29,392 nt of DNA from a virus (IMGVR_UViG_3300031964_000072:1-29392), one strand, 5' to 3'; shown: positions 6,327 through 22,670, counted from the stretch's first letter. The notes: generated from the sequence alone by a model not told the origin. Numbers and translations are program-made.

Positions 6327-6796
6327 TGGACGAGAACGCAAACGCCACAAGCTCTAGCACTTCGACCACGACCACGACGACCGCAACCACGGGGATCAGT
6401 CAGGATCAGTTGAGCATTGCATTGCTGTCACAAAAATTCGACATGCATAACGACTCTGTGCTGAAACAGCTTGGAAGCATCAAAGACATACTTCTCGTTG
6501 AAGTCGCGAACGTCAAATTACAGGCCACCACTGATCGGGATAATACCAATATCCGCTTCACCGTCGTGGACGGGCAGATAAAGGACTTGAAGGAAAAGGA
6601 TATCAAGAACCTTCGGGACAACCTCGATAACATCAAGGATGATGTCGGTGACCTGAAAGAAGCCGCCGCCGCCGATGGTGCTGAGAAAACTCTTCAGTCA
6701 CGCATCCACGACGGTCTTCTGATTGTGTTCGCCGCTATTGTCGGGTCATTAGCAACGGTCTTTGGACCCGGCATTTTGAAGCTATTCCACTTTTAA
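6326..6796 (+). CDS. Coiled-coil protein with C-terminal membrane anchor
   Basis: A 156-aa protein starting at the ATG that overlaps the upstream stop (TAATG). Residues about 6-25 are a Ser/Thr run. Residues 30-130 are helical with a charged coiled-coil pattern (IKDLKEKDIKNLRDNLDN). Residues about 135-153 form one hydrophobic segment (LLIVFAAIVGSLATVF) near the C-terminus. The layout matches membrane-tethered phage accessory proteins of the XhlA kind, which assist lysis, but a tail or membrane-anchor role is equally possible. It is the last gene of the left (+) cluster; its stop shares bases with the convergent MucR-like gene. Confidence 0.7.
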   Translation: MDENANATSSSTSTTTTTTATTGISQDQLSIALLSQKFDMHNDSVLKQLGSIKDILLVEVANVKLQATTDRDNTNIRFTVVDGQIKDLKEKDIKNLRDNLDNIKDDVGDLKEAAAADGAEKTLQSRIHDGLLIVFAAIVGSLATVFGPGILKLFHF

Positions 6797-7245
6797 GCTT
6801 CGGCTTCGACCACCTTCGCCTTGCGTGGGGCCTTAGCCTTCACCGCCGGTTTCGCGGCTTTGCGACCACCCACGCCAAGCCCCATGCTTACCGCCAATGC
6901 GGATCGGCTGGCTGAATATGAACTGCAAACCATGGGATAGGAGTCCGGCAGACCCCACTTGGCGCGGTATTCTTCCGGCGAGAGACCATATTTTGATCGC
7001 AGATGACGCTTCAGCGATTTGAACTTCCGACCATCCTCAAGGCAGATGAGGTAATCGGGCTGAAGTGATTTTTTGATGCTGACGGCGGGGACGAGTTCCG
7101 CCGGTTCAGGTTGAGGCGCCGTGGCCGTGCCCGACAACGCGCCATGAACACTGCGGATCAGCGACGGCACTTCAGCCGCGCTGACGTGATTATGCTGAAG
7201 GTAGGCGGAAACGATGTCCGCCGTCATTTCGATGATTTCGCTCAC
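6793..7245 (-). CDS. Ros/MucR-family transcriptional regulator
   Basis: 150 aa. The core at residues 65-120 carries the family signature: CLEDGRKFKSLKRHL, then SPEEYRAKWGLP and YPMV, then a conserved SALAVSMGLG. Ros/MucR proteins are alphaproteobacterial zinc-finger-like regulators that bind AT-rich DNA and often silence genes. The first ligand pair is C68 and D71, as in many MucR proteins, and His81 is present. The C-terminus is a basic Ala/Lys/Pro tail. The start is GTG. It probably regulates phage or host genes; its targets here are unknown, but the AT-rich promoters of this phage are plausible. Confidence 0.88.
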   Translation of the reverse strand: MSEIIEMTADIVSAYLQHNHVSAAEVPSLIRSVHGALSGTATAPQPEPAELVPAVSIKKSLQPDYLICLEDGRKFKSLKRHLRSKYGLSPEEYRAKWGLPDSYPMVCSSYSASRSALAVSMGLGVGGRKAAKPAVKAKAPRKAKVVEAEA

Positions 7246-8853: not shown

Positions 8854-8974
8854 TGCCTTGCCATGGTCTCACGGAACTCGAATTCGTCAACCTAATCCGC
8901 CGTCCACGTAACGACGCCGCGATCTTCGCTTTCGTCGCATAGGTGATGGCGTTATCGTTGCTCGCGATGGTCAT
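8843..8974 (-). CDS. Tiny basic protein coupled to the methyltransferase
   Basis: 43 aa (MTIASNDNAITYATKAK at the N-terminus, basic and Ser-rich afterwards). Its ATG overlaps the methyltransferase stop (TAATG), and a strong GGAGGG lies seven bases upstream inside the methyltransferase C-terminus. The stop falls inside the operator-like repeats. No motif is recognised; coupling and ribosome site are the support. Confidence 0.45.
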   Translation of the reverse strand: MTIASNDNAITYATKAKIAASLRGRRIRLTNSSSVRPWQGSKH

Positions 8975-10107
8975 TACGCAGCCCTCCGCAAACGACCTTC
9001 AATGATCTCCACATTGTGCGGATCACGCTCGAAGCCGATGTAGCCCCGGCCAGTGTTGATCGCTGCAACGCCGTGCGATCCAGACCCCGCGAACGGGTCA
9101 AGCAGGGTGTCGCCCGGCTTGCTGAACAACCGCAACAGATGTTCGATCAGTGCGACGGGCTTGACGGTCAGATGATCGTTGCCGTCCGCATCCTTTGCGG
9201 CCTTGGTGGGCTTATCGACCGACATCAGCGTTTTCGGGAAACCGCCGTCGAGCGTTTGGGAGGTGTCCACCAGTCCAACGCCATGCCTCATCCAATTATC
9301 GACGAAAGTTCCATCGCGGGGTTTTTGGGCCAGCACCATCGGTTCAAGCGTCTGGTTGATCATCGGGGTTTTGCGCCCACCAATACTTGCGCGGATCGCA
9401 TCCGCGTCGTCACGCCCGTCAATGAAGTGATCGAGCTTCATCGCTCGTGGCAAGCCGGGACGAACCCACCCGAGCATTTCCCGCACCTCAAACCCCACAT
9501 CTTCCACAGCGACCGCCATCCGGTGATAGAGGCGAGCTTGCGAAAAGCTGACGTAGAAACCGCCGGGCTTCAGGACGCGGAAGACTTGTTCGGACACCTC
9601 CGACATGAAGGCTTGGAAATCCCTGCCCTGCTTAGGATCAAACCGCGTGTTAGGCGGCAGACTGCCGATCTTGGCGGGATTGCGGGAACGCCTTTGAAGT
9701 TCTGCGTTATCCCAATCCTCGCCCATCCCTTGCAAAAAGTAAGGCGGGTCGGTGATGACGATTTCAATGGATTGGTCAGGGATCGCGGCGAACAGATCGC
9801 GGCAGTCTCCGCACAACACTTTTGCGTTGTCATTGGCCGACTTGGGAATAGTGATGCACTGCGCAGGCGCCACAACGGCAGGGACAGTTTCGCGGATGGT
9901 GCGACGGGCAACCTTTCGTGCAGCCCTTCGTGCAGCCCTTCGCGCCTCTAGGCGACGTTTCCACGGGGCTTGCTTGGCGACCTTGCGCTTGGGCGCCGCC
10001 ATGACGGCCTGAACGGCTGCGACGATCTCATCATGTTCGTCAACGCACGCCGGTTCAGGCTTGATGTTATCGTTGGCCGGAGTCGGGATCGGGGTTACTT
10101 GAGACAT
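8974..10107 (-). CDS. Orphan DNA adenine N6-methyltransferase (beta class)
   Basis: 377 aa. The first 80 residues are a basic Arg/Ala/Lys extension with PIPTPANDN. The methyltransferase domain begins near residue 95 (AKVLCGDCRDLFAAIP). Catalytic motif IV is DPPY at residues 120-123, which favours adenine-N6. The SAM-binding motif DPFAGSG lies late, at residues 337-343, after TVKPVALIEHLLRLF, which is the beta-class order. No restriction gene is adjacent, so it is probably solitary and protects or marks phage DNA. It is preceded by AAGGAACC at the right spacing and a 258-bp leader. Confidence 0.9.
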   Translation of the reverse strand: MSQVTPIPTPANDNIKPEPACVDEHDEIVAAVQAVMAAPKRKVAKQAPWKRRLEARRAARRAARKVARRTIRETVPAVVAPAQCITIPKSANDNAKVLCGDCRDLFAAIPDQSIEIVITDPPYFLQGMGEDWDNAELQRRSRNPAKIGSLPPNTRFDPKQGRDFQAFMSEVSEQVFRVLKPGGFYVSFSQARLYHRMAVAVEDVGFEVREMLGWVRPGLPRAMKLDHFIDGRDDADAIRASIGGRKTPMINQTLEPMVLAQKPRDGTFVDNWMRHGVGLVDTSQTLDGGFPKTLMSVDKPTKAAKDADGNDHLTVKPVALIEHLLRLFSKPGDTLLDPFAGSGSHGVAAINTGRGYIGFERDPHNVEIIEGRLRRAA

Positions 10108-10365: not shown

Positions 10366-10710
10366 TTACGAAACCTTACAGGCAGCCTGCAACGCCATGA
10401 AGTGATCCAGCCGGATCACCGCCAAAGCCTCCCTGCGATCCTGCTTCAGGATCAGCAGAGGCTCTAAGGCGCCGTGTCCTTTGGCTTGCTCGAAGTCGGT
10501 GTAGACCGCCATCTTTGCGCGAGCCTTGACCTCCACCTCATACGGGAAGGATTGCTTGGCGGCTTGGCTGAGCATGATGTCACAACCGTTGGCGCCCATG
10601 CTGCGGCTTGCAACGTCGTCCTCGGTAAGGTGCGGGTGATGGGCGAGGATCGCCTTGGCGGCGATCTGCTGACCTCTACGGCCTTTCGCCTTCGCGCTGG
10701 CGGTCTTCAC
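10366..10710 (-). CDS. PD-(D/E)xK-type phage nuclease/resolvase-like protein
   Basis: 114 aa. SRSMGANGCDIMLS followed by FPYEVEVKA gives the acidic residue D44 and the E60-x-K62 signature of PD-(D/E)xK nucleases, in a pattern shared by small phage proteins annotated as endonuclease- or Holliday-junction-resolvase-like. Basic N-terminus (MKTASAKAKGRRGQQ). Its start overlaps the holin-like stop (ATGA), so it is cotranslated with lysis-type genes. Likely role: processing of replication or packaging intermediates. Activity is inferred from the motif only. Confidence 0.68.
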   Translation of the reverse strand: MKTASAKAKGRRGQQIAAKAILAHHPHLTEDDVASRSMGANGCDIMLSQAAKQSFPYEVEVKARAKMAVYTDFEQAKGHGALEPLLILKQDRREALAVIRLDHFMALQAACKVS

Positions 10711-11233: not shown

Positions 11234-11260
11234 CTGCGTTAAAAACTACGCAGTTATTTA
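11234..11260 (-). promoter_or_regulatory. TAAATA promoter with hairpin before the holin operon
   Basis: GACTAAATA ends at 11255 on the minus strand; its TAA is also the stop of the upstream gene. CTGCGT (11253-11248) starts one base later and pairs with ACGCAG (11239-11234), and the AGG at the end of the 3' arm is the ribosome site for the ATG at 11224. Confidence 0.7.
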
Positions 11261-11455
11261 GTCAGCGAACATCAGACGAAATTTGGCGGCATCGTCCAAA
11301 ACGGTGAACTCAATCGTCATGAACCATTCATCATGGTGATCCAACGGTCCTTCGACCGTCAGCTTGAACGTCTCGCAATTTGCGAAGAGCCATTGGTTCG
11401 CCACCGCAGCCACGGAATAGGGGAAGGTGGCGGTGATGGTGTGGGTGGTGATCAT
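11258..11455 (-). CDS. Small unknown protein of the FK-tail array
   Basis: 65 aa, predicted strand-helix-strand (THTITATFPY, then NQWLFANC, then FMTIEFTV) ending DDAAKFRLMFAD. The pattern Trp followed by a Cys/Asn turn and a terminal DA-xx-FK-like segment recurs in neighbours at 13740-14445, suggesting a shared small alpha/beta fold. It is the last gene of the 14941-11258 unit, with its start coupled (ATGA). Its stop codon forms part of the next TAAATA motif. Confidence 0.6.
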   Translation of the reverse strand: MITTHTITATFPYSVAAVANQWLFANCETFKLTVEGPLDHHDEWFMTIEFTVLDDAAKFRLMFAD

Positions 11456-11709
11456 TCCCCACCCCAGAACATCTTGAATCTGGCGGCTTCAGCTTGCTCT
11501 TCATCAGTTGTCCACGCGGTGACGAGGAAAAGCGCGGCATCAATATGCTTGCTGAACGACACGGCCAGATCGTTAAAACCCGAGTAGACCGGAGACGCGC
11601 TAATCTGGATGTTCACCGCGTTAGTGGGGACAGTCCGGCAAAACTCGATGGTATTGTCTGCTGACATGGAGAAATTCACCGTCACGGGGAAGGACCGTTG
11701 CTGGATCAT
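11452..11709 (-). CDS. Small unknown protein ending FKMFWGGE
   Basis: 85 aa with alternating beta stretches (FPVTVNFSMSADN, LAVSFSKHIDAALF) and a helical C-terminus ending EAARFKMFWGGE. The last eight residues nearly match those of the 127-aa protein at 13047-13430 (FKMFWGGDQ), although the rest differs. Start and stop overlap neighbours by four bases. Function unknown; probably a non-structural accessory protein. Confidence 0.62.
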   Translation of the reverse strand: MIQQRSFPVTVNFSMSADNTIEFCRTVPTNAVNIQISASPVYSGFNDLAVSFSKHIDAALFLVTAWTTDEEQAEAARFKMFWGGE

Positions 11710-11969
11710 TCCGTGTCACCATCTTCTCGCGCGGGATAGGCGTAGACGCTCAGCAGATATTCCTTGTTGTCGCCCATCGTCATCCGAACAGAGCAATGAT
11801 CCAACGGCGGTTGAAACCGTTCGGCGCCCGGCTGATAGGGGATGATAGAAAAGCCGTTCTTGAGCGCGTGCGTGAGGTTAGGACCCAGTTCGTTTCGGAC
11901 GCGGGTCATCAGGTCTACGAACGCGATGCGCTCCTGAAGGCGGGTGTTGAGATTTTCGAGATCAGACAT
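11706..11969 (-). CDS. Small unknown protein
   Basis: 87 aa starting MSDLENLNTRLQERIAF, with a helical N-terminal half and beta C-terminal half. The frame opens further upstream, but the ATG at 11969 overlaps the stop of the 362-aa gene by eight bases and is preceded by a GGGG stretch, so it is preferred. It lacks the FK tail. Coupled on both sides. No motif recognised. Confidence 0.58.
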   Translation of the reverse strand: MSDLENLNTRLQERIAFVDLMTRVRNELGPNLTHALKNGFSIIPYQPGAERFQPPLDHCSVRMTMGDNKEYLLSVYAYPAREDGDTE

Positions 11970-13050
11970 TGTCGCCCCGGTCAGCTTCATCCGCATCCTT
12001 GGCGAGAAACGCCAGATGTTCAGCAAGGTTTTCCTCGGGTATGGTGTGAACGCGGTCTAGATTAAGCACAAATGCCTCACCTGACTCGTTACCACTCACT
12101 AGATTGATCGTCCCGATGACCCGGTGGACATCCTCTTGCGACGGTTCGGGAGCGTCCGACCACATTGGATCAATAATCGGCTCAATCTTGAATTCAGGAT
12201 AGATCGGCTCCGGCCATTTCGCAGGATCGGTGACTTCCTCAACGCCTGCTGCCATCATCTTCATGTTGAAGGTTGTGGCGGCGAGCGCGGGAGGCTCGGC
12301 TGAACGGTCTCCGAATAATGACTCCATCATCTCTTCATCAGTCATGCCGGTGAGAGTGACCACATCGCCTCTATCGGCTTGATCAGCGAGAGTGGTCAGG
12401 CGATTGACCAACTCTTCGTTGCGACAGATGCACGAACCCGTTTCTTCGTCATAGGCTGACGACAGGCATTCAGGGCAGAGCGGAACCCACGGCTCTGTGC
12501 CATCCCCGATCCACACAGGACGGGTGTCCACACGATAGCCGATGCCCGGCTGAATGGCGGTGTAAAGCTGGTCTTCCAGATCGGCGATACGGTCAAGGAG
12601 AGGCGCGGCGGGGACGGTGGCGGCAAGCTGGCGCGGATTATCGCCAAGATAGACTTCGCAGAAACCATCGTTCAGCCGTTCGGCGAAATCCACGCGGGTC
12701 TGGTCATCCCATTCCCAAAATGGTGTGCGAGCGGTGATGTCGTCCTGAGCCGATGAAACGATGTCAGCAGCCCAACCCGCACTGACGCGGCATCCATCGG
12801 GATAGCTGGCGATCAGGTCGGCATTTTCCTTTTCAAGTTCGGCGATCCGCAGACTTAAGTTCGTGTTCTCCGTTGCCAGATCGATGACCCTACTCGTGTC
12901 GCAAAGCATCGTGTTGGCTGGCGCGGCGAAATAGTCGGAATCGCCATTGTAAAATTCGGCATCAAAATCGTTCTCGGTTCGAGCGTCCTGAAGAGCGTCC
13001 ACCAGCATCGCCTTGATCGCCGTGAGATCGTCGTTCGCGGGGGCGGTCAT
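11962..13050 (-). CDS. Unknown 362-aa acidic protein with zinc-binding cysteines
   Basis: Acidic, Asp/Glu-rich, soluble protein. A helical stretch at about 68-85 (LSLRIAELEKENADL) may form a coiled coil. At about 190-210, CPEC followed by a Cys-x-Cys (SCIC) could hold a metal ion. No catalytic motif was recognised. It is the largest member of the 15633-11258 array and overlaps both neighbours (ATGA before, eight bases after). Its acidity resembles phage inhibitors or DNA mimics, but that is speculation. Confidence 0.62.
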   Translation of the reverse strand: MTAPANDDLTAIKAMLVDALQDARTENDFDAEFYNGDSDYFAAPANTMLCDTSRVIDLATENTNLSLRIAELEKENADLIASYPDGCRVSAGWAADIVSSAQDDITARTPFWEWDDQTRVDFAERLNDGFCEVYLGDNPRQLAATVPAAPLLDRIADLEDQLYTAIQPGIGYRVDTRPVWIGDGTEPWVPLCPECLSSAYDEETGSCICRNEELVNRLTTLADQADRGDVVTLTGMTDEEMMESLFGDRSAEPPALAATTFNMKMMAAGVEEVTDPAKWPEPIYPEFKIEPIIDPMWSDAPEPSQEDVHRVIGTINLVSGNESGEAFVLNLDRVHTIPEENLAEHLAFLAKDADEADRGDNV

Positions 13051-13430
13051 TGGTCACCACCCCAGAACATCTTGAACTGAACGGCTCTCTCAACGGCCTT
13101 GGTTAGGCGATCCCTATTAGCCGGGCTGTAAATCCCGTGAGGATCGTCCGGCAACTTCTGCATGGTCTCGACAATATCGACGGCGAACTTGATGCGCCCT
13201 TCCCACGACATACTGCGAACCACTTGTTCAAGGGCCGACTCCATGCTGTTGGCATACTCGTCCCGCGCCCAACGGTAGCGTTCCTCTGCGTTCTCATTGT
13301 GCATCAGTGACAAACGACCGGCGGTATCGACCGGCTTTCCGTTCGTTCGATAATATTCCAGTTGTTCCTTGGCTTCGTTGAATAGGAACTCTTCGCGGGT
13401 GCGCTTAGTATCAATAGGATGAAGGCTCAT
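13047..13430 (-). CDS. Helical protein ending FKMFWGGDQ
   Basis: 127 aa, predicted almost fully helical (FLFNEAKEQLEYYRTNG, YANSMESALEQVV), ending VERAVQFKMFWGGDQ. The tail nearly repeats that of the otherwise unrelated 85-aa protein at 11452. The leader has GGAAAGAC before the start, also seen before the next upstream gene. Function unknown. Confidence 0.65.
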   Translation of the reverse strand: MSLHPIDTKRTREEFLFNEAKEQLEYYRTNGKPVDTAGRLSLMHNENAEERYRWARDEYANSMESALEQVVRSMSWEGRIKFAVDIVETMQKLPDDPHGIYSPANRDRLTKAVERAVQFKMFWGGDQ

Positions 13431-13481
13431 TGGTAGTCTTTCCGACCGTCTTGCGCGGCCTAATCGTGTGTTTAGATCGTC

Positions 13482-13700
13482 TTATTCGCCGCCAAAAAAT
13501 AACTTGGCTTGAACAAGTTTGTCTTCTTCCGCTTCCATGACCATAATCATGAGGTTGGCGCGGTCGGCGTTGAGGCCGTAGTTGTGACGGAGGGCCTGCT
13601 TAAGGTCTTCGCGCTTGGCCGACTCACGCATTGCTTCGGTCAACTGCTTGATTTTCGCAAATGTCACACCGGTGGGTGGGGATGATAGAATGATCGCCAT
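13482..13700 (-). CDS. Small helical protein ending AKLFFGGE
   Basis: 72 aa from ATG (MAIILSSPPTGVTFAK), helical (IKQLTEAMRESAKREDLK), ending LVQAKLFFGGE, a third version of the shared tail. A TTG ten codons earlier is possible, but GGAAAG lies correctly before the ATG. A small hairpin (GGCGG/CCGCC) overlaps the ribosome-site region. Function unknown. Confidence 0.6.
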   Translation of the reverse strand: MAIILSSPPTGVTFAKIKQLTEAMRESAKREDLKQALRHNYGLNADRANLMIMVMEAEEDKLVQAKLFFGGE

Positions 13701-13739
13701 AGTGTCTTTCCGGCGGGAAATGTCCGCCAATCGCTGTTT

Positions 13740-13970
13740 TTAATCGTTCCACAGAATATCGGCGTGGAAGAGCTTGAATAGTGTTGCATCGCGTTTATTG
13801 AAGAACGTGAAGCGGTGACCGTAAGTGCTGATCTGGCCCGGTTCACCAAAGGCGACAGCTTGCCGCTCGTGCTTGATCCGGTTGTCATAGCACCACTTGC
13901 GCGGAGCCTTGATGCGACCGGTTATTTCGACAGTCCATTCGGTTTGTTCAATCGTCTCCACAGTCGTCAC
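13740..13970 (-). CDS. Small alpha/beta protein of the FK-tail array
   Basis: 76 aa: an N-terminal strand (WTVEITGRIKA), then RKWCYDN, then a strand (HRFTFFN) and RDATLFKLFHADILWND. KWC-x-DN and RDA-x-LFKLF are shared with the next gene (13967), so the two are likely tandem paralogues. The start overlaps the stop of 13967-14182 (ATGA). Function unknown. Confidence 0.62.
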   Translation of the reverse strand: MTTVETIEQTEWTVEITGRIKAPRKWCYDNRIKHERQAVAFGEPGQISTYGHRFTFFNKRDATLFKLFHADILWND

Positions 13971-14182
13971 CCGAAGAACAACTTAAAAAGGGCTGCATCT
14001 CGTTGGTCGTCGAAAAAGGCGCGGAACCTCTTATTGCCGTTCGGCAGTTGTATCCCACCACTTCCTACCGCCCATTCCCCTTCACAATTATCGACGCACC
14101 ATTTCTTCACCGTCTTGTATGCGGTCTGATGAGGCAGAGAGGTGATACGCACGCGGTATTCAAATCGCTCTGAAAGGCTCAT
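13967..14182 (-). CDS. Small alpha/beta protein of the FK-tail array
   Basis: 71 aa from the ATG overlapping the preceding stop (ATGA); a longer opening is available but less likely. FEYRVRITSLP, then VKKWCVDNC, then RFRAFFDD and RDAALFKLFFG. Closest match within the window is the 76-aa neighbour at 13740. The strand-helix-strand-helix order suggests a ferredoxin-like mini-domain. Function unknown. Confidence 0.62.
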   Translation of the reverse strand: MSLSERFEYRVRITSLPHQTAYKTVKKWCVDNCEGEWAVGSGGIQLPNGNKRFRAFFDDQRDAALFKLFFG

Positions 14183-14445
14183 CCCAACCACCGCATCTTG
14201 AAGTGGATCGCGTCCCGAGCGTTGGTGAAGGTCAGCCGCCAGAACCAATTGCCCAGCCTATATTCGGCCTTTGTAGTATGCTCTGGCTGTCGTTCTATGT
14301 TTTCGCTGTAGGTAATGCCTTGCTCTTCAAGCCATTTCTTCTCATCATCACACCGGCGAAAATTAACGCCGGGGCCGTCGAAGTGGATGATGAGGCTAAG
14401 GTTCTCTTCCGGGGCGGGCGTGGAGGTGTTGGGCTGAACGGTCAT
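14179..14445 (-). CDS. Small alpha/beta protein of the FK-tail array
   Basis: 88 aa. A disordered Thr/Pro-rich start (MTVQPNTSTPAPEEN), then a strand (LSLIIHFDG), a helix with EKKWLEEQG, a strand (WFWRLTFTN) and a terminal ARDAIHFKMRWLG. Same order as the genes at 13740 and 13967. ATGA overlaps at both ends. Function unknown. Confidence 0.6.
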   Translation of the reverse strand: MTVQPNTSTPAPEENLSLIIHFDGPGVNFRRCDDEKKWLEEQGITYSENIERQPEHTTKAEYRLGNWFWRLTFTNARDAIHFKMRWLG

Positions 14446-14657
14446 TGCTCAACCCCGAAGTAAGCCGGGCTACGCAACTTGCAAATCATCATCGCGTCTT
14501 CGTCGTACACGCTCACGTCAACAAACCAGTGCCGAGCATCAATAGCCCACATCCACTTGAACCTGCTGCGTCGTGAGCCAAGCAATGCCTTCAACTGTTC
14601 GTGGAAGCCTTCACGATCATAGATCGGGTCGAACCGAACCCAGCCAAATCGCTTCAT
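14442..14657 (-). CDS. Small unknown protein of the array
   Basis: 71 aa from the ATG that overlaps the preceding stop (MKRFGWVRFDPIYDREGF). RHWFVDVSVYDEDAMMICKL near the C-terminus looks like a diverged form of the strand-DA-x4-KL ending of its neighbours. ATGA coupling on both sides. Function unknown. Confidence 0.58.
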   Translation of the reverse strand: MKRFGWVRFDPIYDREGFHEQLKALLGSRRSRFKWMWAIDARHWFVDVSVYDEDAMMICKLRSPAYFGVEQ

Positions 14658-14941
14658 TCCACGTCCCCCAACACTGTCACCGTGGCGACACCCTGAATTT
14701 CGCACTCAAGATTGTCGAACCAATAGTCAGTCGCGTTGTATTGGACGAGACCTTCCTTGGTTATCGTGTTCAAATCGGTGCGGTATCCCATGCTCGAAGT
14801 CATCTTCAAGCTCTCGATCCTCATACTCGCCGTAGCTGTCGGGAGCCACTTGATGTAGATGCGGTGAGGTTTAGGTGCTTGGTGGGCGATAATGGCCCGG
14901 TCAATCGCAGCAATCGCGTCGTCAATCAGTTCGGTATTCAT
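14654..14941 (-). CDS. Small unknown protein, first gene of the array transcript
   Basis: 95 aa: helical N-terminus (MNTELIDDAIAAIDRAIIAH), then beta-rich. It has a clear GGAGA ribosome site directly after a hairpin and is headed by two successive TAAATA-hairpin units. It lacks the FK tail and ends VTVLGDVE. Function unknown. Confidence 0.6.
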   Translation of the reverse strand: MNTELIDDAIAAIDRAIIAHQAPKPHRIYIKWLPTATASMRIESLKMTSSMGYRTDLNTITKEGLVQYNATDYWFDNLECEIQGVATVTVLGDVE

Positions 14942-14953
14942 TTGTAGTCTCCA

Positions 14954-14976
14954 ATAGTAGATGCTGCTACTATTTA
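14954..14976 (-). promoter_or_regulatory. TAAATA promoter with hairpin (proximal)
   Basis: GACTAAATA (motif 14976-14971) is followed by ATAGTAG/CTACTAT (14973-14967 with 14960-14954), whose 5' arm reuses the end of the motif. GGAGA follows directly after the 3' arm and serves the ATG at 14941. Confidence 0.7.
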
Positions 14977-14985
14977 GTCACAATA

Positions 14986-15012
14986 CCTAATTACCTTGAA
15001 TTAGGCTATTTA
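14986..15012 (-). promoter_or_regulatory. Second, upstream TAAATA-hairpin unit
   Basis: TAAATA at 15012-15007, then CCTAATT pairing with AATTAGG in a perfect seven-base stem (15005-14986). Only a three-codon frame (GTG to TAG) fits before the next TAAATA motif, so this unit is tandem to the proximal one or left from a lost gene. Confidence 0.55.
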
Positions 15013-15017
15013 CTTCA

Positions 15018-15293
15018 CTATTTCGCAACCTTGTCGCGCCAATCAGGACCAATCTTTTCTTCGGACCATTTCTCGGAACGCTCGATAGCGTGCAGCCATA
15101 CCCGGCGTAGCGTGTACTCCGCCGTGTCCCTGAAACACACTACGCGAGCCGCCACGAACACATCGGTGTTCCAACGCTTAACAAGCGTAAGGTTATCTTG
15201 GTTCAGGCAAAATCGAGTGAAACTATCCATCTCGTCATGCGTCAGATGCAGATAGATCGATATCGGTTCATACTTACTAATCGTCTTTGCCAT
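15018..15293 (-). CDS. Small unknown protein
   Basis: 91 aa: ISIYLHLTHDEMDSFTRF, then a strand VFVAARVVCFRD and a basic helix (EYTLRRVWLHAIERSEKW). The strand-helix-strand-helix order resembles the array proteins downstream, without the exact tail. It overlaps the upstream gene by 17 bases, with GGAAAACG before the ATG. Function unknown. Confidence 0.6.
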   Translation of the reverse strand: MAKTISKYEPISIYLHLTHDEMDSFTRFCLNQDNLTLVKRWNTDVFVAARVVCFRDTAEYTLRRVWLHAIERSEKWSEEKIGPDWRDKVAK

Positions 15294-15659: not shown

Positions 15660-15665
15660 TATTTA
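15660..15665 (-). promoter_or_regulatory. TAAATA promoter (minus), divergent from the lysin promoter
   Basis: GACTAAATAATAC on the minus strand, about 20-26 bases before the start at 15639/15633. Only a weak five-base hairpin (AAATA/TATTT) can form. It stands back to back with the lysin promoter about 30 bases away. Confidence 0.6.
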
Positions 15666-15696
15666 GTCATAATATCCCAACGCTGTGCCAATAGTC

Positions 15697-15719
15697 TATA
15701 AATACGGTTATGATACCGT
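15697..15719 (+). promoter_or_regulatory. TATAAATA promoter giving a leaderless lysin start
   Basis: Perfect TATAAATA at 15697-15704; ATG at 15710 is five bases later with no ribosome site. ACGGT (15704-15708) and ACCGT (15715-15719) would close a hairpin with the ATG in its loop, but only in an RNA starting further upstream. Confidence 0.75.
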
Positions 15720-16177
15720 CTAACGATCAAGAGTGGTTGGCTTTGCTTATTTGGAGCGAGGCGCGAGGCGAACCTACCGACGGTCAAGCCGCCGTTGCCC
15801 GCGTCGTGCTGAACCGTAGCGTTCTGCGCTACAGTTCAGATGGGACGGTCAAGGGCACCATTTTGGCGCCTTCGCAATTTTCAGATTTCTGGTTCAAATT
15901 TGTTGGCGGGCACTACGTCCGCGTCTGCCACAGCCTTGCCGACGCAGAGGTACGCGCCGGTGTACTGATGGGGCAGGCAAAGGCTCAGGGAAGCCTCTGG
16001 ACGGCTTTGAGCGGTGTTGCGGCTGCGGTGATCGCCGAGACCTACACAAGCCCTGCCTATGACGTTCTGACGAACGATGTGGTGCTTTACGCCAACCTTT
16101 CGATCAGCAATCCCGCATGGGCTACGGCGGACAAGTTCGCGACGAAGATCGGCGCGCACTCTTTTTATCATGCTTGA
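15710..16177 (+). CDS. SleB-type cell-wall hydrolase (endolysin)
   Basis: 155 aa, the length of a stand-alone Hydrolase_2 (SleB/CwlJ) domain. EWLALLIWSEARGEP carries the expected catalytic glutamate (E17), followed by GQAAVARVVLNR and PSQFSDFW, which are typical of the family. These enzymes cleave the glycan strand of peptidoglycan. No signal peptide is visible, so export would need the holin. The gene stands alone between a leaderless promoter and a terminator region, consistent with late lysis expression. Confidence 0.88.
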   Translation: MIPSNDQEWLALLIWSEARGEPTDGQAAVARVVLNRSVLRYSSDGTVKGTILAPSQFSDFWFKFVGGHYVRVCHSLADAEVRAGVLMGQAKAQGSLWTALSGVAAAVIAETYTSPAYDVLTNDVVLYANLSISNPAWATADKFATKIGAHSFYHA

Positions 16178-16306: not shown

Positions 16307-17017
16307 CTATTTGAATCGTGAAATTGTTTTTGGCTTTGCCAGATTGATTTTGTAGCGGACTGCCCGAAGCTGAGCCCGCTCTTGGTGGTAAGCAATCCAA
16401 GCCGCATCCACCGCTTTATCCTTGAACCGCATATGCCACTCATCGTTGGCATGGGTCCGCATGAGATCATCGGCCTGAATACCGCCGTAAGCTTCTTCGA
16501 ACGCTTCAATGAAATCGTCCGCGATCTCTACGAAATCGATGGGGTCATGGTCGATATGGATCGCCTTGACAGGAACCCACGCCCCACTCACTTCGCATTT
16601 GATCTCACCGTCACGGATACGCTGGCGGCGGAATGCATCAATCTGCGGCACGATGGCGGTCCTGAAACCGGCCCGAACATTTCTCATCAATTGGCCGCGC
16701 GGTGATTGCTGAGCGGCGTTCCCCGCGTTCTCAGCACAGGTGTGCCAACCGAACGGCACGAAACCTCCAAGATCGTCCACCAAGCCCACCTGAACGCCGT
16801 TGCCACCCCTCGGATTGATACGGGTGGCAAACCCGGTGCATTCACCCTCAAGCTGGTCAGCCTTCACCGGGATGCTTTCGCTGTGCGCCATCAGAGCCCA
16901 CCAGAAATCATCAGGCTTGAAGGGCGTGGGGGTGTGCGTTCCCTGTGGAAGAGATGCGCGAGCATGATCCTTCAGCGCAGCCACAGATTTGAATTGATAT
17001 TCTCCAACGTGGATCAT
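16307..17017 (-). CDS. HNH-like protein with DCL/DUF3223-type features
   Basis: 236 aa. The N-terminus (FKSVAALKDHARASLP) resembles the start of DUF3223/DCL-type domains. CEVSG at 141-145 and HIDHD at 154-158 look like a Cys-containing HNH-type metal site, and the C-terminus (WHMRFKDKAVDAAWIAYHQ, then a basic tail) fits a DNA-binding helix after the nuclease core. The start overlaps the helicase stop (ATGA), placing it at the end of the replication operon. Likely a phage DNA endonuclease; activity inferred. Confidence 0.55.
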   Translation of the reverse strand: MIHVGEYQFKSVAALKDHARASLPQGTHTPTPFKPDDFWWALMAHSESIPVKADQLEGECTGFATRINPRGGNGVQVGLVDDLGGFVPFGWHTCAENAGNAAQQSPRGQLMRNVRAGFRTAIVPQIDAFRRQRIRDGEIKCEVSGAWVPVKAIHIDHDPIDFVEIADDFIEAFEEAYGGIQADDLMRTHANDEWHMRFKDKAVDAAWIAYHQERAQLRAVRYKINLAKPKTISRFK

Positions 17018-18594
17018 CGGCGGATGTCCGAGAATGGCACCACGTTGTCGTCAGTGTCGGGTTCAGGCTCGGGGGACTCATATAGGTAGGACGACGTGCG
17101 CGCCTTGCCCTTGATGGCCTTGATGAACACAGGGTGATCGGGGAGCAACTTGCTCACCTGCCTGCCCCAGACGGTCAGATCGGTGACGTAGTTCCGGCCA
17201 AAATGGTCAGACTCCCACTGGCGGAACACCGAATGAAGCTCGGTGGCCGTCACATAAGGCTTGACCTGAGAGTGCTTTTTAAGGTGGCCATAGTTGTATT
17301 CGCTCGGGTCGAACGACTCCAACCACACCTCCGTCCGCGTCTTGCTCCGTTGAGACCCTTGAAGGGCCTTCAGCGTCTCGTTATGGGCTTTCAAGGGGTC
17401 AACAGCGTCAACCCGCACCGAACTCCACACTGCGGTCCAATCAACGGCTGCGAGGCTCGCCCAATCGGGGTTGTCGCACATGCGGAGACCGACGAAGCGG
17501 CGGTTGCCGGTAGTGTCGCGGATCAGTTGATCCATTTCATCGTTGGACGTGCCGATCAGCGTGGCCTTCTGTTCGAGGCTGATCACCTCGTTCTTGCCGA
17601 GGGGGCGTGTGTCCGCGCGATCCTCGGTGATGAGCGTCTTGACGGTGTTCATTTCCGCCTTCTTCGCGCCCGCCATTTCGTCCACGAACAGGATAAAGCT
17701 CTTGCTCAGTTCCATCGAATAACGCTGGTCAGCGATCTGGTCGAACTTCACCGTCCGCATCGATTCCAAGAGTGGAGTGCAGATCGTCCGCACCAGCGTA
17801 GTCTTGCCGATGCCCTGCTTTCCCAACAGAACGATCATCAGGTGGTCATCCACCGGCTTGCCGACCATCTTGCATTTCACTTGGTGCATGAACTTTTTGA
17901 TGGCAGCTTCGTAGAACTCCACGGTGAAGTCATCGTCCACTACGAAGTTCGAACGGATCGCCGCGTGCAGCGTCGCGGTCAGCATGGGCGCCATGGTGGG
18001 ATCAGGCTGGCGGTCGATTTCACGGAACAGGACTGCTGGGCGAGCCGCGCGGGCCGTGGAGACCCATTCCCCGACCGCAGCCTTAAGCTCAGCCTCGGTG
18101 AAGCGTTTGAGGTTCGGCCACTTCCGGGTGAACAGGAAAATATCGTTATAGAGGCTCATGCTCGTGACATCGCGGCGCGTCAGAGCCATGCGGAGTTTCA
18201 CGGCAGGGTCGGCCAGATCGGCGGCGGTCACCTCAACCACCTTGCCGTTGTCCAGCACCATGGTGGTCTGACCGCTCGTGATCATGCCGTTGTGGCGGCA
18301 GACAATCCCGTAGGTTTGAACCCAAAGCTCCACGAGGTGCATCACATCGGTAGGGACGGCTCCAAGGATCGTGGAGACGCGGGCGTTCCAAACAGCCCGT
18401 TCCGCCATCTTGGCGTTCATGCTCTTGCCGCCATGAGACACCAGCACAGACAACAAGCGTTTCCAGACACCGGCGTGTGCATCGCGGTTGGTGCGCTCCC
18501 CCGCAAGGCTCAGAAGTTCATATCGTTCATCATCAGTAGCAGACTGATCGGGTTCGAAATTCTCCCACTCGGCAAGTTTAGTAATAAAATCCAT
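17014..18594 (-). CDS. VapE/D5-type replicative helicase
   Basis: 526 aa. Residues about 255-270 hold the P-loop (LLGKQGIGKTTLV), residues about 303-306 the Walker B (FVDEM), followed by TRPLGKNEVISLEQKATLIGTSN and NRRFVGLRM, the signature of the virulence-associated E / SF3-like helicase family. These proteins unwind DNA next to a primase in many prophages and satellites. A primase gene lies 34 bases upstream in the same orientation. The N-terminal 240 residues are helical and probably mediate assembly or loading. Confidence 0.9.
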   Translation of the reverse strand: MDFITKLAEWENFEPDQSATDDERYELLSLAGERTNRDAHAGVWKRLLSVLVSHGGKSMNAKMAERAVWNARVSTILGAVPTDVMHLVELWVQTYGIVCRHNGMITSGQTTMVLDNGKVVEVTAADLADPAVKLRMALTRRDVTSMSLYNDIFLFTRKWPNLKRFTEAELKAAVGEWVSTARAARPAVLFREIDRQPDPTMAPMLTATLHAAIRSNFVVDDDFTVEFYEAAIKKFMHQVKCKMVGKPVDDHLMIVLLGKQGIGKTTLVRTICTPLLESMRTVKFDQIADQRYSMELSKSFILFVDEMAGAKKAEMNTVKTLITEDRADTRPLGKNEVISLEQKATLIGTSNDEMDQLIRDTTGNRRFVGLRMCDNPDWASLAAVDWTAVWSSVRVDAVDPLKAHNETLKALQGSQRSKTRTEVWLESFDPSEYNYGHLKKHSQVKPYVTATELHSVFRQWESDHFGRNYVTDLTVWGRQVSKLLPDHPVFIKAIKGKARTSSYLYESPEPEPDTDDNVVPFSDIRR

Positions 18595-20474: not shown

Positions 20475-20480
20475 TAAATA
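20475..20480 (+). promoter_or_regulatory. TAAATA motif overlapping a start codon
   Basis: CTTGTAAATATG: the last A of the motif is the first base of the ATG at 20480. With TATTTATACAAG at 20439-20450 it forms an imperfect inverted pair (CTTG(TA)TAAATA), so the two promoters are mirror images. Too close for a standard start, so less certain than the others. Confidence 0.4.
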
Positions 20481-20695
20481 TGTCATTGGACATTCACTTA
20501 ACCTTCAAGTTCTCTACTGTCGACGATGCGAACGCGTTTCAATCGTGGTGCGAGGAGTCTGGATACATGGCTAGGCAAGTGCGTCTAGATAGTTCAGCGC
20601 ATTTTTGTGAGGCATGTATATCGGACGATCAGGTGTCGTCGTTCCACGATTTGTGGGGAATATTCTTGGTAAGTTTTGGCGTTAGACCTATCTGA
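20480..20695 (+). CDS. Small alpha/beta protein resembling the array proteins
   Basis: 71 aa (MSLDIHLTFKFSTVDDANAF, then QSWCEESGY, then a C-terminal VSSFHDLWGIFLVSFG). The strand, helix with WC, strand, hydrophobic end is the same order as the genes at 11258, 13740 and 13967 on the other strand, so it may be a distant relative placed next to the terminase. No ribosome site is visible before the ATG. The stop lies within a sequence (CTGAGGA) able to pair with the next leader. Confidence 0.52.
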   Translation: MSLDIHLTFKFSTVDDANAFQSWCEESGYMARQVRLDSSAHFCEACISDDQVSSFHDLWGIFLVSFGVRPI

Positions 20696-20751: not shown

Positions 20752-21099
20752 ATGGCTAAAGGTGGGTATCGCCCCGGATCGGGCCGTAAAGCTGGCAAAG
20801 CTGGCTTGGACAAATTGATCACAAACAATAAGTTGTTGGAAGAGGTGAAGGCCAAATATGCCCATCTTGGCAACATTGAAGACCCGCTTGAGGTTATGTT
20901 GCTGTGTCAGACCATGGCGGTTGAAGAACAGAATTGGGACAAAGCGTTTGAACGCTCTAGCGTTCTAGCTCCATTTTTCCATGGCAAGGCTCCGTCTGCT
21001 GTTGAGCACACGGTTAAAACCATCAAAGACGATGCATCGGTGGCAGAGCGTGCAGCGCATCTTTGGGGAACTGTTCCGAAGCTGACAGTGGTTAAATGA
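20752..21099 (+). CDS. Terminase small subunit-like protein
   Basis: 115 aa, starting MAKGGYRPGSGRKAGKAG, a GxRPGSGRK-type N-terminus common in phage small terminases. The middle is helical (DPLEVMLLCQTMAVEEQNW). It overlaps the large terminase start (ATGA) and so sits where terS is expected. It would recognise the packaging site and deliver DNA to the motor. Expression appears tied to the TAAATA promoter and its ribosome-site hairpin. Confidence 0.78.
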   Translation: MAKGGYRPGSGRKAGKAGLDKLITNNKLLEEVKAKYAHLGNIEDPLEVMLLCQTMAVEEQNWDKAFERSSVLAPFFHGKAPSAVEHTVKTIKDDASVAERAAHLWGTVPKLTVVK

Positions 21100-22670
21100 T
21101 CGAAGTTGATCCTTTAATCCTCGAAAATCTACGTGCTATTCGACAAGACATTTCGCTCTTGGAACAATATACGCCGGACCAACTCGAAGACATACGCGAA
21201 CTTCACAACTACGCGATGCGCGAATGCTTTGACTATTATGCTGAAGTCGTCGCACCGGATTTCTGCAAACCACACCACGATCCGGCCCCATCACGCCACC
21301 ACAGGCTGCTGATCTATTGGTTGAACCAACTCGCCGCGTGGGATGGCACCGGCAAAGTCGGCATCAAGCGCCTGATGATCTGGATGCCGCCCGGTTCTGC
21401 CAAAAGTACGTATACCGCACGTATCTGGCTGTCTTGGATGATGATGCGGAACGAGTTTTCCGAGTGCATCCTGACATCAGCATCAAGCACACTGGTTGAT
21501 GAGCACTCAGAGCGGATTCAAAAGCTCGCTATCAAGTATGGGGATATATTCAAGGTAAAGTTGCTCGGTTGCCGTGGTGAACAGTTACCAGCCAAAGGTA
21601 ATTGGAAACTTGATAATAAGTCTAGCCTCTTGGCGGTTTCGGCGGGCACTGATTTTCAGGGCTTCAGGGGTGACATCATCATAGCCGACGATCCCGTTGG
21701 TGGTGTTGAAGACATGACCGATGGCAAGCGTGAAGCCATGTGGCAGTGGTTCGACCAAAATATGCTTGGTCGTATTTCTGATGGTCTTAGCCGGATCGTC
21801 GTCATTATGACGCGTTGGAATGATGACGATATTTGCGGCCGGATTTTGCGTGAAAAGGGACGTGAAGGCTGGACGATTATTTCTCTCCCAGCGATTTGGG
21901 AATACGAGCACGACGAACCCGAGTTTCCGCTTGGTCTTGGCCGCAAGATCGATATCACGCTCGCCGAACCACTGCGTGATGAGCGGCTTTTGCTCTGGCC
22001 CCAGTACCACGGCTTTGAACGCTATGACGAAGCCCGTAAGGGTGCCGAGATCAAATTCCAAGCTCAATATCAGTGCAATCCCCTCCCGCCCGGCGGTGTC
22101 CTTTTCCAAGCGGACAAGATCAATCCTTCACGCGGCGCCCGCCGTGCAGTGAAGATGGTTCGGGCATGGGATTTCGCTGCAAGCAAGAAAAAAGGCGCCG
22201 ATTATACATGCTCTGTCAAAATGCAAGTGGATGCATTCGGCCATTATAACGTGCTGCACCGCACCAAGGATCGCCTTGGTCCGCATGAGGCTCGTGCAGC
22301 CGTGATGGATTTCGCCAAAGAGGATGGTCCGAATTGCTACATCGCAATTCCCAAGGACCCCGGTCAGGCCGGATCATGGCAAGCTCAGGACTTGGTTGCA
22401 GGGCTGGCGGGCTTCAAAGTTGAGGTATATTCACAAACAGGGTCCAAAGAGGATCGCGCTAAGCCGTTCGCCAGTCAGGTCAATGGCGAGAATGTCAGTG
22501 CTGAGATAGCCGATTGGAACCGCGATTTCGTTGACGAACTGCGCGGATTCCCAAATCTTCAGCATGACGATCAGGTGGATGCTGCATCGATGGCGTTCGG
22601 GTCGCTTTTGGACCTTCCGAAGCTAGTTCGCCCACCGCGTTGGAGCCATGGAAATCACCTTTCACGCTAG
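21096..22670 (+). CDS. Terminase large subunit
   Basis: 524 aa, normal for the packaging ATPase-nuclease. Walker A is MPPGSAKST (residues about 97-105) and Walker B IIIADDP with D198/D199. The nuclease domain begins MVRAWDFAASKKKGADY (D359) and ends with HDDQVDAAS (D491, D492, D495), the expected acidic cluster. It pumps DNA into the prohead at the portal and cuts the concatemer. Unusually, the portal gene is not next but 1.45 kb downstream, after a recombinase insertion. Confidence 0.95.
   Translation: MIEVDPLILENLRAIRQDISLLEQYTPDQLEDIRELHNYAMRECFDYYAEVVAPDFCKPHHDPAPSRHHRLLIYWLNQLAAWDGTGKVGIKRLMIWMPPGSAKSTYTARIWLSWMMMRNEFSECILTSASSTLVDEHSERIQKLAIKYGDIFKVKLLGCRGEQLPAKGNWKLDNKSSLLAVSAGTDFQGFRGDIIIADDPVGGVEDMTDGKREAMWQWFDQNMLGRISDGLSRIVVIMTRWNDDDICGRILREKGREGWTIISLPAIWEYEHDEPEFPLGLGRKIDITLAEPLRDERLLLWPQYHGFERYDEARKGAEIKFQAQYQCNPLPPGGVLFQADKINPSRGARRAVKMVRAWDFAASKKKGADYTCSVKMQVDAFGHYNVLHRTKDRLGPHEARAAVMDFAKEDGPNCYIAIPKDPGQAGSWQAQDLVAGLAGFKVEVYSQTGSKEDRAKPFASQVNGENVSAEIADWNRDFVDELRGFPNLQHDDQVDAASMAFGSLLDLPKLVRPPRWSHGNHLSR

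Follow-up and report, generated by a model that had tools for sequence, protein, structure and literature searches.

Gene context of the array

The window (the whole stretch of DNA analysed here) is a complete IMG/VR record of 29,392 bases from a virus. It carries the following genes outside the array.

223-1560: integrase (PHROG 1)
6793-7245, minus strand: phage-encoded ROS/MUCR regulator (PF05443, 1.7e-48)
8974-10107: DNA methyltransferase
10366-10710: RusA-like resolvase
15710-16177: cell-wall hydrolase
17014-18594: VapE-like helicase/primase gene
21096-22670: terminase

An array of small genes runs on the minus strand from 15639 down to 11258. Many of its stop and start codons overlap, as had been noticed beforehand from the sequence, and the C-termini quoted in that preliminary description were all present as given. 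The array adjoins replication genes, and the structural genes are carried by the other strand. Relatives of the ROS/MUCR regulator occur in the viral records G001 (= L001) and G006. MucR proteins are typical of Alphaproteobacteria, and an alphaproteobacterial host group is therefore suggested for the window phage. The sequence TGACTAAATA is present in three exact copies in the window against 0 expected, each lying 5' of a minus-strand gene in the region of small genes, and is a candidate extended -10 promoter or operator.

11255..11264, minus strand: TGACTAAATA, spanning the stop codon of 11258, upstream of the 11224 gene (exact-copy count)
14971..14980, minus strand: TGACTAAATA, upstream of the 14941 gene (exact-copy count); candidate operon promoter/operator
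15660..15669, minus strand: TGACTAAATA, upstream of the 15639 gene, within an 18-nt repeat shared with the 14971 site (89%)

C-terminal tails of the array proteins

C-termini were scored with a nine-column profile built from other viruses only, the null being 4,956 shuffled or host-genome C-termini. All genes listed are on the minus strand.

11258..11455, minus strand: tail protein, 65 aa, ending ...IEFTVLDDAAKFRLMFAD (13.8 bits, p=0.0002)
11452..11709, minus strand: tail protein, 85 aa, terminal tail EAARFKMFWGGE (16.7 bits, p=0.0002)
13047..13430, minus strand: 127-aa protein ending in RAVQFKMFWGGDQ, looking helical from sequence (8.3 bits, p=0.0004)
13482..13703, minus strand: small array protein ending ...KLVQAKLFFGGE (-7.6 bits, p=0.06), membership unsupported
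13740..13970, minus strand: tail protein, 76 aa, ...FTFFNKRDATLFKLFHADILWND, with a 7-residue extension past the motif (18.5 bits, p=0.0002)
13967..14182, minus strand: tail protein, 71 aa, ...FFDDQRDAALFKLFFG (21.3 bits, p=0.0002; AlphaFold2 pLDDT 86.3, pTM 0.68)
14179..14445, minus strand: tail protein, 88 aa, ...RLTFTNARDAIHFKMRWLG (22.5 bits, p=0.0002; tail HMM 5.8e-7)
14442..14657, minus strand: probable diverged member, 71 aa, ...VSVYDEDAMMICKLRSPAYFGVEQ (tail DAMMICKLRS, p=0.001)
15018..15293, minus strand: possible domain relative by sequence inspection, with a longer C-terminal helix (VVCFRDTAEYTLRRVWLHAIERSEKW) and a non-significant tail score

A common tail had been proposed for seven of these genes. 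Six match the profile from other viruses (p<=0.0004) and carry DAxxFKLxW within about 10 residues of the stop (14179, 13967, 13740, 11452, 11258 and 13047); the seventh, 13482, does not. Gene 14442, absent from the earlier list, is likely an additional member. The products of 13740 and 13967 are paralogues (E 4e-5, 48% identity). In 11452 an extra segment, HIDAALFLVTAW, separates the domain from the terminal tail EAARFKMFWGGE; its structure model (E-H-E-E-H-H) is of low confidence (pLDDT 68), and no conclusions are based on it. Relatives of 11452 and 13047 were sought in IMG/VR, and none were found.

Domain anatomy

Across the family the tail consensus is FxFxxxxDAxxFKLxW, usually placed 0-3 residues ahead of the stop codon (352 of 447 tail proteins). 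Some members extend 7-24 residues beyond the motif, and two extend 100 and 144 residues, so that a free C-terminus is ruled out as an absolute requirement. In two phage records, L148:6832-7512 and L171:15989-16537 are apparent homologues in which the domain is N-terminal and followed by 144 and 100 residues, respectively, of unassigned type, and L001:5469-5942 joins a family-like domain to an apparent membrane-spanning extension.

The AlphaFold2 model of 13967, built with 78 sequences (pLDDT 86), predicts a b-a-b-b-a domain: b1 (7-12), a1 (18-32), b2 (37-45), b3 (51-57) and a2 (60-70). The tail consists of b3 and a2, residues 60-70 forming the tail helix. Helix a1 holds a near-invariant W, often as WCxxN. 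Because this a1 motif is found in 76% of tail proteins compared with 5.6% of shuffled bodies, most bodies are homologous, diverged beyond the reach of ordinary searches, and the tail is for the most part not a tag on unrelated bodies. The b-a-b-b-a domain with its W-C/L-x-x-N helix is present in 13967 by AlphaFold2 and was not seen in 13047. The earlier view of unrelated bodies is thus mostly wrong, 13047 being the apparent exception in the window. The reading of the tail as a partner or address signal is in part weakened, since the 13967 model gives it as an ordinary C-terminal helix and most bodies are diverged versions of one domain. We describe the family as small domains in which the body evolves fast and the C-terminal strand and helix are nearly fixed, the fold being predicted from one AlphaFold2 model.

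The product of 13047 looks all-helical by eye, with the C-terminus AVQFKMFWGGDQ, and no relatives of it were found. A 36-nt direct repeat (D1), shared with 11452, contains its tail codons.

11443..11478, minus strand: D1 copy 1, covering tail codons of 11452 and the start of 11258
13041..13076, minus strand: D1 copy 2 (83% identity), covering tail codons of 13047 and the stop/start of the next gene

A core of 20 nt, TTCAAGATGTTCTGGGGTGG, is identical between the copies, and no direct repeat longer than D1 was seen in the region searched. The simplest reading is that the tail reached a new body, that of 13047, by recombination. That the tail was retained there hints that it may be useful by itself; this is a single case and no proof.

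Family libraries and known structures

The 89 members compared with PHROGs, NCBIfam and PADLOC gave 0 matches in each. Against Pfam they gave a single isolated match (7.5e-4, one member), with no shared family at E <= 0.001. No well-matching structure for the 13967 model was found in the PDB (best E-value 0.099), and the Foldseek PDB matches, at E 0.1 or worse, were set aside as analogy or chance. The best-matching viral models belong to uncharacterised proteins of phages, including one of PA5oct. A weak profile match (E=0.028) to the Ran-binding domain of Nup358/RanBP2 reflects a similar terminal strand and helix, IRFKTPEEAALFKCKFEEA; that domain is eukaryotic and has a PH-type fold, unlike ours, and the match (E 0.03) was also set aside as analogy or chance. 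Small a/b folds of the ferredoxin-like, ACT, PII and KH kinds share the general b-a-b-b-a topology with the family but reach a TM of at most about 0.65 among the matches listed, and the family lacks their last strand. With three strands and two helices, the 13967 model differs from the b-a-b-b-a-b arrangement with a four-stranded sheet that defines a ferredoxin-like fold. No description of the tail motif was found in the open literature searched. The protein family itself appears undescribed in the family libraries, structure library and open literature searched.

Distribution and copy number

A strict DNA pattern (DAxxFKLxW, two residues and a stop) matched 69 stretches in IMG/VR, most of which are genuine ORF ends. 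The same pattern in 257 Gb of bacterial and archaeal genomes gave 24 matches, only 2 of them at an ORF end and neither convincing. By these counts the tail family is viral. A looser pattern gave up to 27 matches per record in 32 viral records, and its reversal gave 0 in all 32; these records were chosen by a first match, which accounts neither for the extra copies nor for the zero reversed controls. A further set of 21 records yielded 447 tail ORFs, and the reversed pattern matched 0 times there. The tail is kept in hundreds of relatives from diverse viruses, which bears out the earlier expectation that relatives would not carry random tails. One of them, L001, is related to the window virus (helicase 63% identical) and carries a separate array in which other bodies bear the same tail.

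The 561-kb contig of IMG/VR record G009 (L055) carries at least 139 tail genes, against zero in the reversed control. They form an exceptionally large gene family for a phage and are densest near 362-390 kb, 125-133 kb and 547-552 kb. Sinorhizobium phage Phosso has about 40 copies (reversed control zero), clustered so that 19 gaps are shorter than 1.5 kb where 5.4 are expected, and many neighbours overlap. Among INPHARED isolates, recognisable members were seen only in Phosso, the PA5oct/Paride group and Atu_ph07; a Dolichospermum phage gave one weak match. A tblastn search with the 21-aa tail alone was too insensitive, returning Phosso only (reversed control none).

Duplication, often in tandem and with overlapping stop and start codons, has brought the family to copy numbers of dozens, or above one hundred, in some jumbo phages. 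The window array is a small outpost of this superfamily, an undescribed one whose members are small proteins of phages. That a jumbo phage can expand a small family is known already: Bacillus phage G carries about 35 copies of zinc ribbons (PMC7824862). That case is similarly a lineage-specific expansion of a small protein family; its fold is different, its copies are fewer, and phage G has no tail proteins.

A residue set by lineage

The residue x of FKLxW is K in 102 of 114 tails of the 561-kb record, R in 11/11 and 6/6 tails of two others, and mostly T in a large group. Among pairs with dissimilar bodies, x is identical at 0.36 within genomes and 0.13 between genomes, a ratio of 2.87; the corresponding ratios are at most 1.4 for a1 positions and at most 1.7 for other tail positions. 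With one protein per body cluster, permutation gave z of 11.5-12.1 overall for x and no more than 4.3 for the other tail positions tested. The value for x was 8.2 without the K-type phage; leaving out two R-type records as well lowered it to 2.8, which means that a few lineages carry the effect. Among body-similar pairs, x agrees in 39% across genomes and in 80% within genomes (phages taken together), and at most other tail sites these within-genome pairs are more diverged than the cross-genome pairs. The mixture of synonymous codons at x follows general usage, so the constraint is on the protein and does not stem from recent DNA copying. Recent gene conversion of 3' ends is thereby ruled out as the source of a uniform x. 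In the window, x is F in 13967, 13740, 11452 and 13047, a residue found in only 6 of 443 tails elsewhere, and R and M in 14179 and 11258; because 11452 and 13047 have the 36-nt repeat in common, their two F residues do not count as independent cases.

Discussion

The pattern at x is the one expected of an interaction site adapted to a single partner. We hypothesize that the tail helix is a docking surface shared by all copies in one phage for a common partner, and we give this an even chance, because the pattern could also reflect lineage history. In the proposed mechanism the helix would do double duty, A, F and W closing the domain core while K, L and x dock on the partner; x, the variable residue flanked by L and W, would be adapted to the local partner. 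The variable bodies would act as small accessory proteins with a separate target each, plausibly in early host takeover; we infer an early or takeover role solely from the placement of the genes beside replication genes. The helix would then bring all bodies to one hub, for which AAA+/Clp chaperones are the only candidate, and a weak one. The fuller proposal, that a constant helix plugs many small effectors into one phage or host hub and that one residue serves as a lineage-specific docking code, is more doubtful, and we put it forward tentatively.

The shared partner of the preliminary description is thus a favored but unproven reading, of which its "address signal" may be regarded as one version. 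The lineage-specific x, seen across bodies without detectable similarity, speaks for it; the search for a partner came up empty. A conserved partner encoded by the phages themselves was sought among the proteins that the records share; MucR/Ros occurs in the window, G001 and G006 but did not turn up in every record.

A purely structural role, rather unlikely in our estimate, would make the tail the core helix of a fast-evolving domain, with x shared through common descent within a phage. It agrees with the ordinary helix of the model, with the placing of A, F and W on one helix face (by helical wheel), with the homology indicated by the common a1 motif and with the existence of extended members. 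It does not explain why K is near-invariant or why the helical-looking 13047 has the tail, and x is fixed by lineage while the neighboring tail positions and all a1 positions are scrambled.

Mutual assembly, in which the partner is the family itself, seems improbable. The truncated ferredoxin-like sheet would have a free edge and paralogues would co-assemble through a2, with x as a compatibility code; the arrays, the large copy number and the lineage-specific x would fit, and so would the absence from the model of the last strand of a ferredoxin-like fold.

Slightly less credit is given to the possibility that the helix docks on a phage or host Clp/AAA+ chaperone, with bodies that would deliver various proteins or shield them. 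Of 19 tail-bearing records searched, 15 have ClpP and 16 have ClpA/C- or ClpX-type ATPases scoring above the cut-off; among 6 jumbo phages without tails, ClpP was found in 2. The PA5oct members lie 0.5-1 kb from the PA5oct ClpP gene. However, the tail-bearing jumbo phages are largely interrelated and the correlation is confounded; phage G has ClpP without tails, ClpP is absent from both the window and the related L001, and the single Atu_ph07 member does not adjoin a Clp gene. Clp as partner, drawn from genomic co-occurrence, is speculative. There is a precedent in SPO1, whose host takeover module is a cluster of small genes with a Clp adaptor-like member, Gp53 (PMC6873191); the abstract mentions no common C-terminal element. 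As an observation in its own right, nearly all tail-bearing jumbo records encode ClpP together with ClpA/C-like and ClpX-like ATPases.

Very improbable is a virion-packaging tag, comparable to the capsid-targeting sequence of T4 internal proteins but placed C-terminally. In T4 a constant element is likewise borne by variable small proteins, where it is N-terminal and cleaved; here it is a C-terminal helix within a domain fold. The constant end on variable small bodies is what such a tag would look like, whereas the window genes sit with replication and not structural genes, and the two PA5oct members, EST35_0274/0275, lack the ESI-MS/MS note borne by some neighbors, a weak argument as small proteins are often missed. 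Chance or compositional artefact is refuted for the family, although the one quoted tail of 13482 falls within it: hundreds of forward matches stand against 0 reversed ones in the 32 records and 21 ORF sets.

If docking on one hub is true, some jumbo phages spend a large share of their genes on one family. Most jumbo-phage genes have no known relatives, and many "orphan" small genes in one jumbo group form a single family, for which annotation has a simple rule in that it is recognisable from the last 20 residues. The lineage-specific residue also makes the idea of a shared partner directly testable.

Two minor observations may be added. The F codon of FKL is nearly always TTC in G019 (58/61), G028 (23/23) and G021 (23/25), genomes that use TTC and TTT about equally overall; this bias indicates a nucleotide-level constraint, perhaps avoidance of slippery TTTAAA/TTTAAG. 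In the window itself, a small protein encoded at 20480-20695 on the plus strand (MSLDIHLTFKFSTVDDANAFQSWCEESGY...) superficially resembles the strand and W-C helix of the family.
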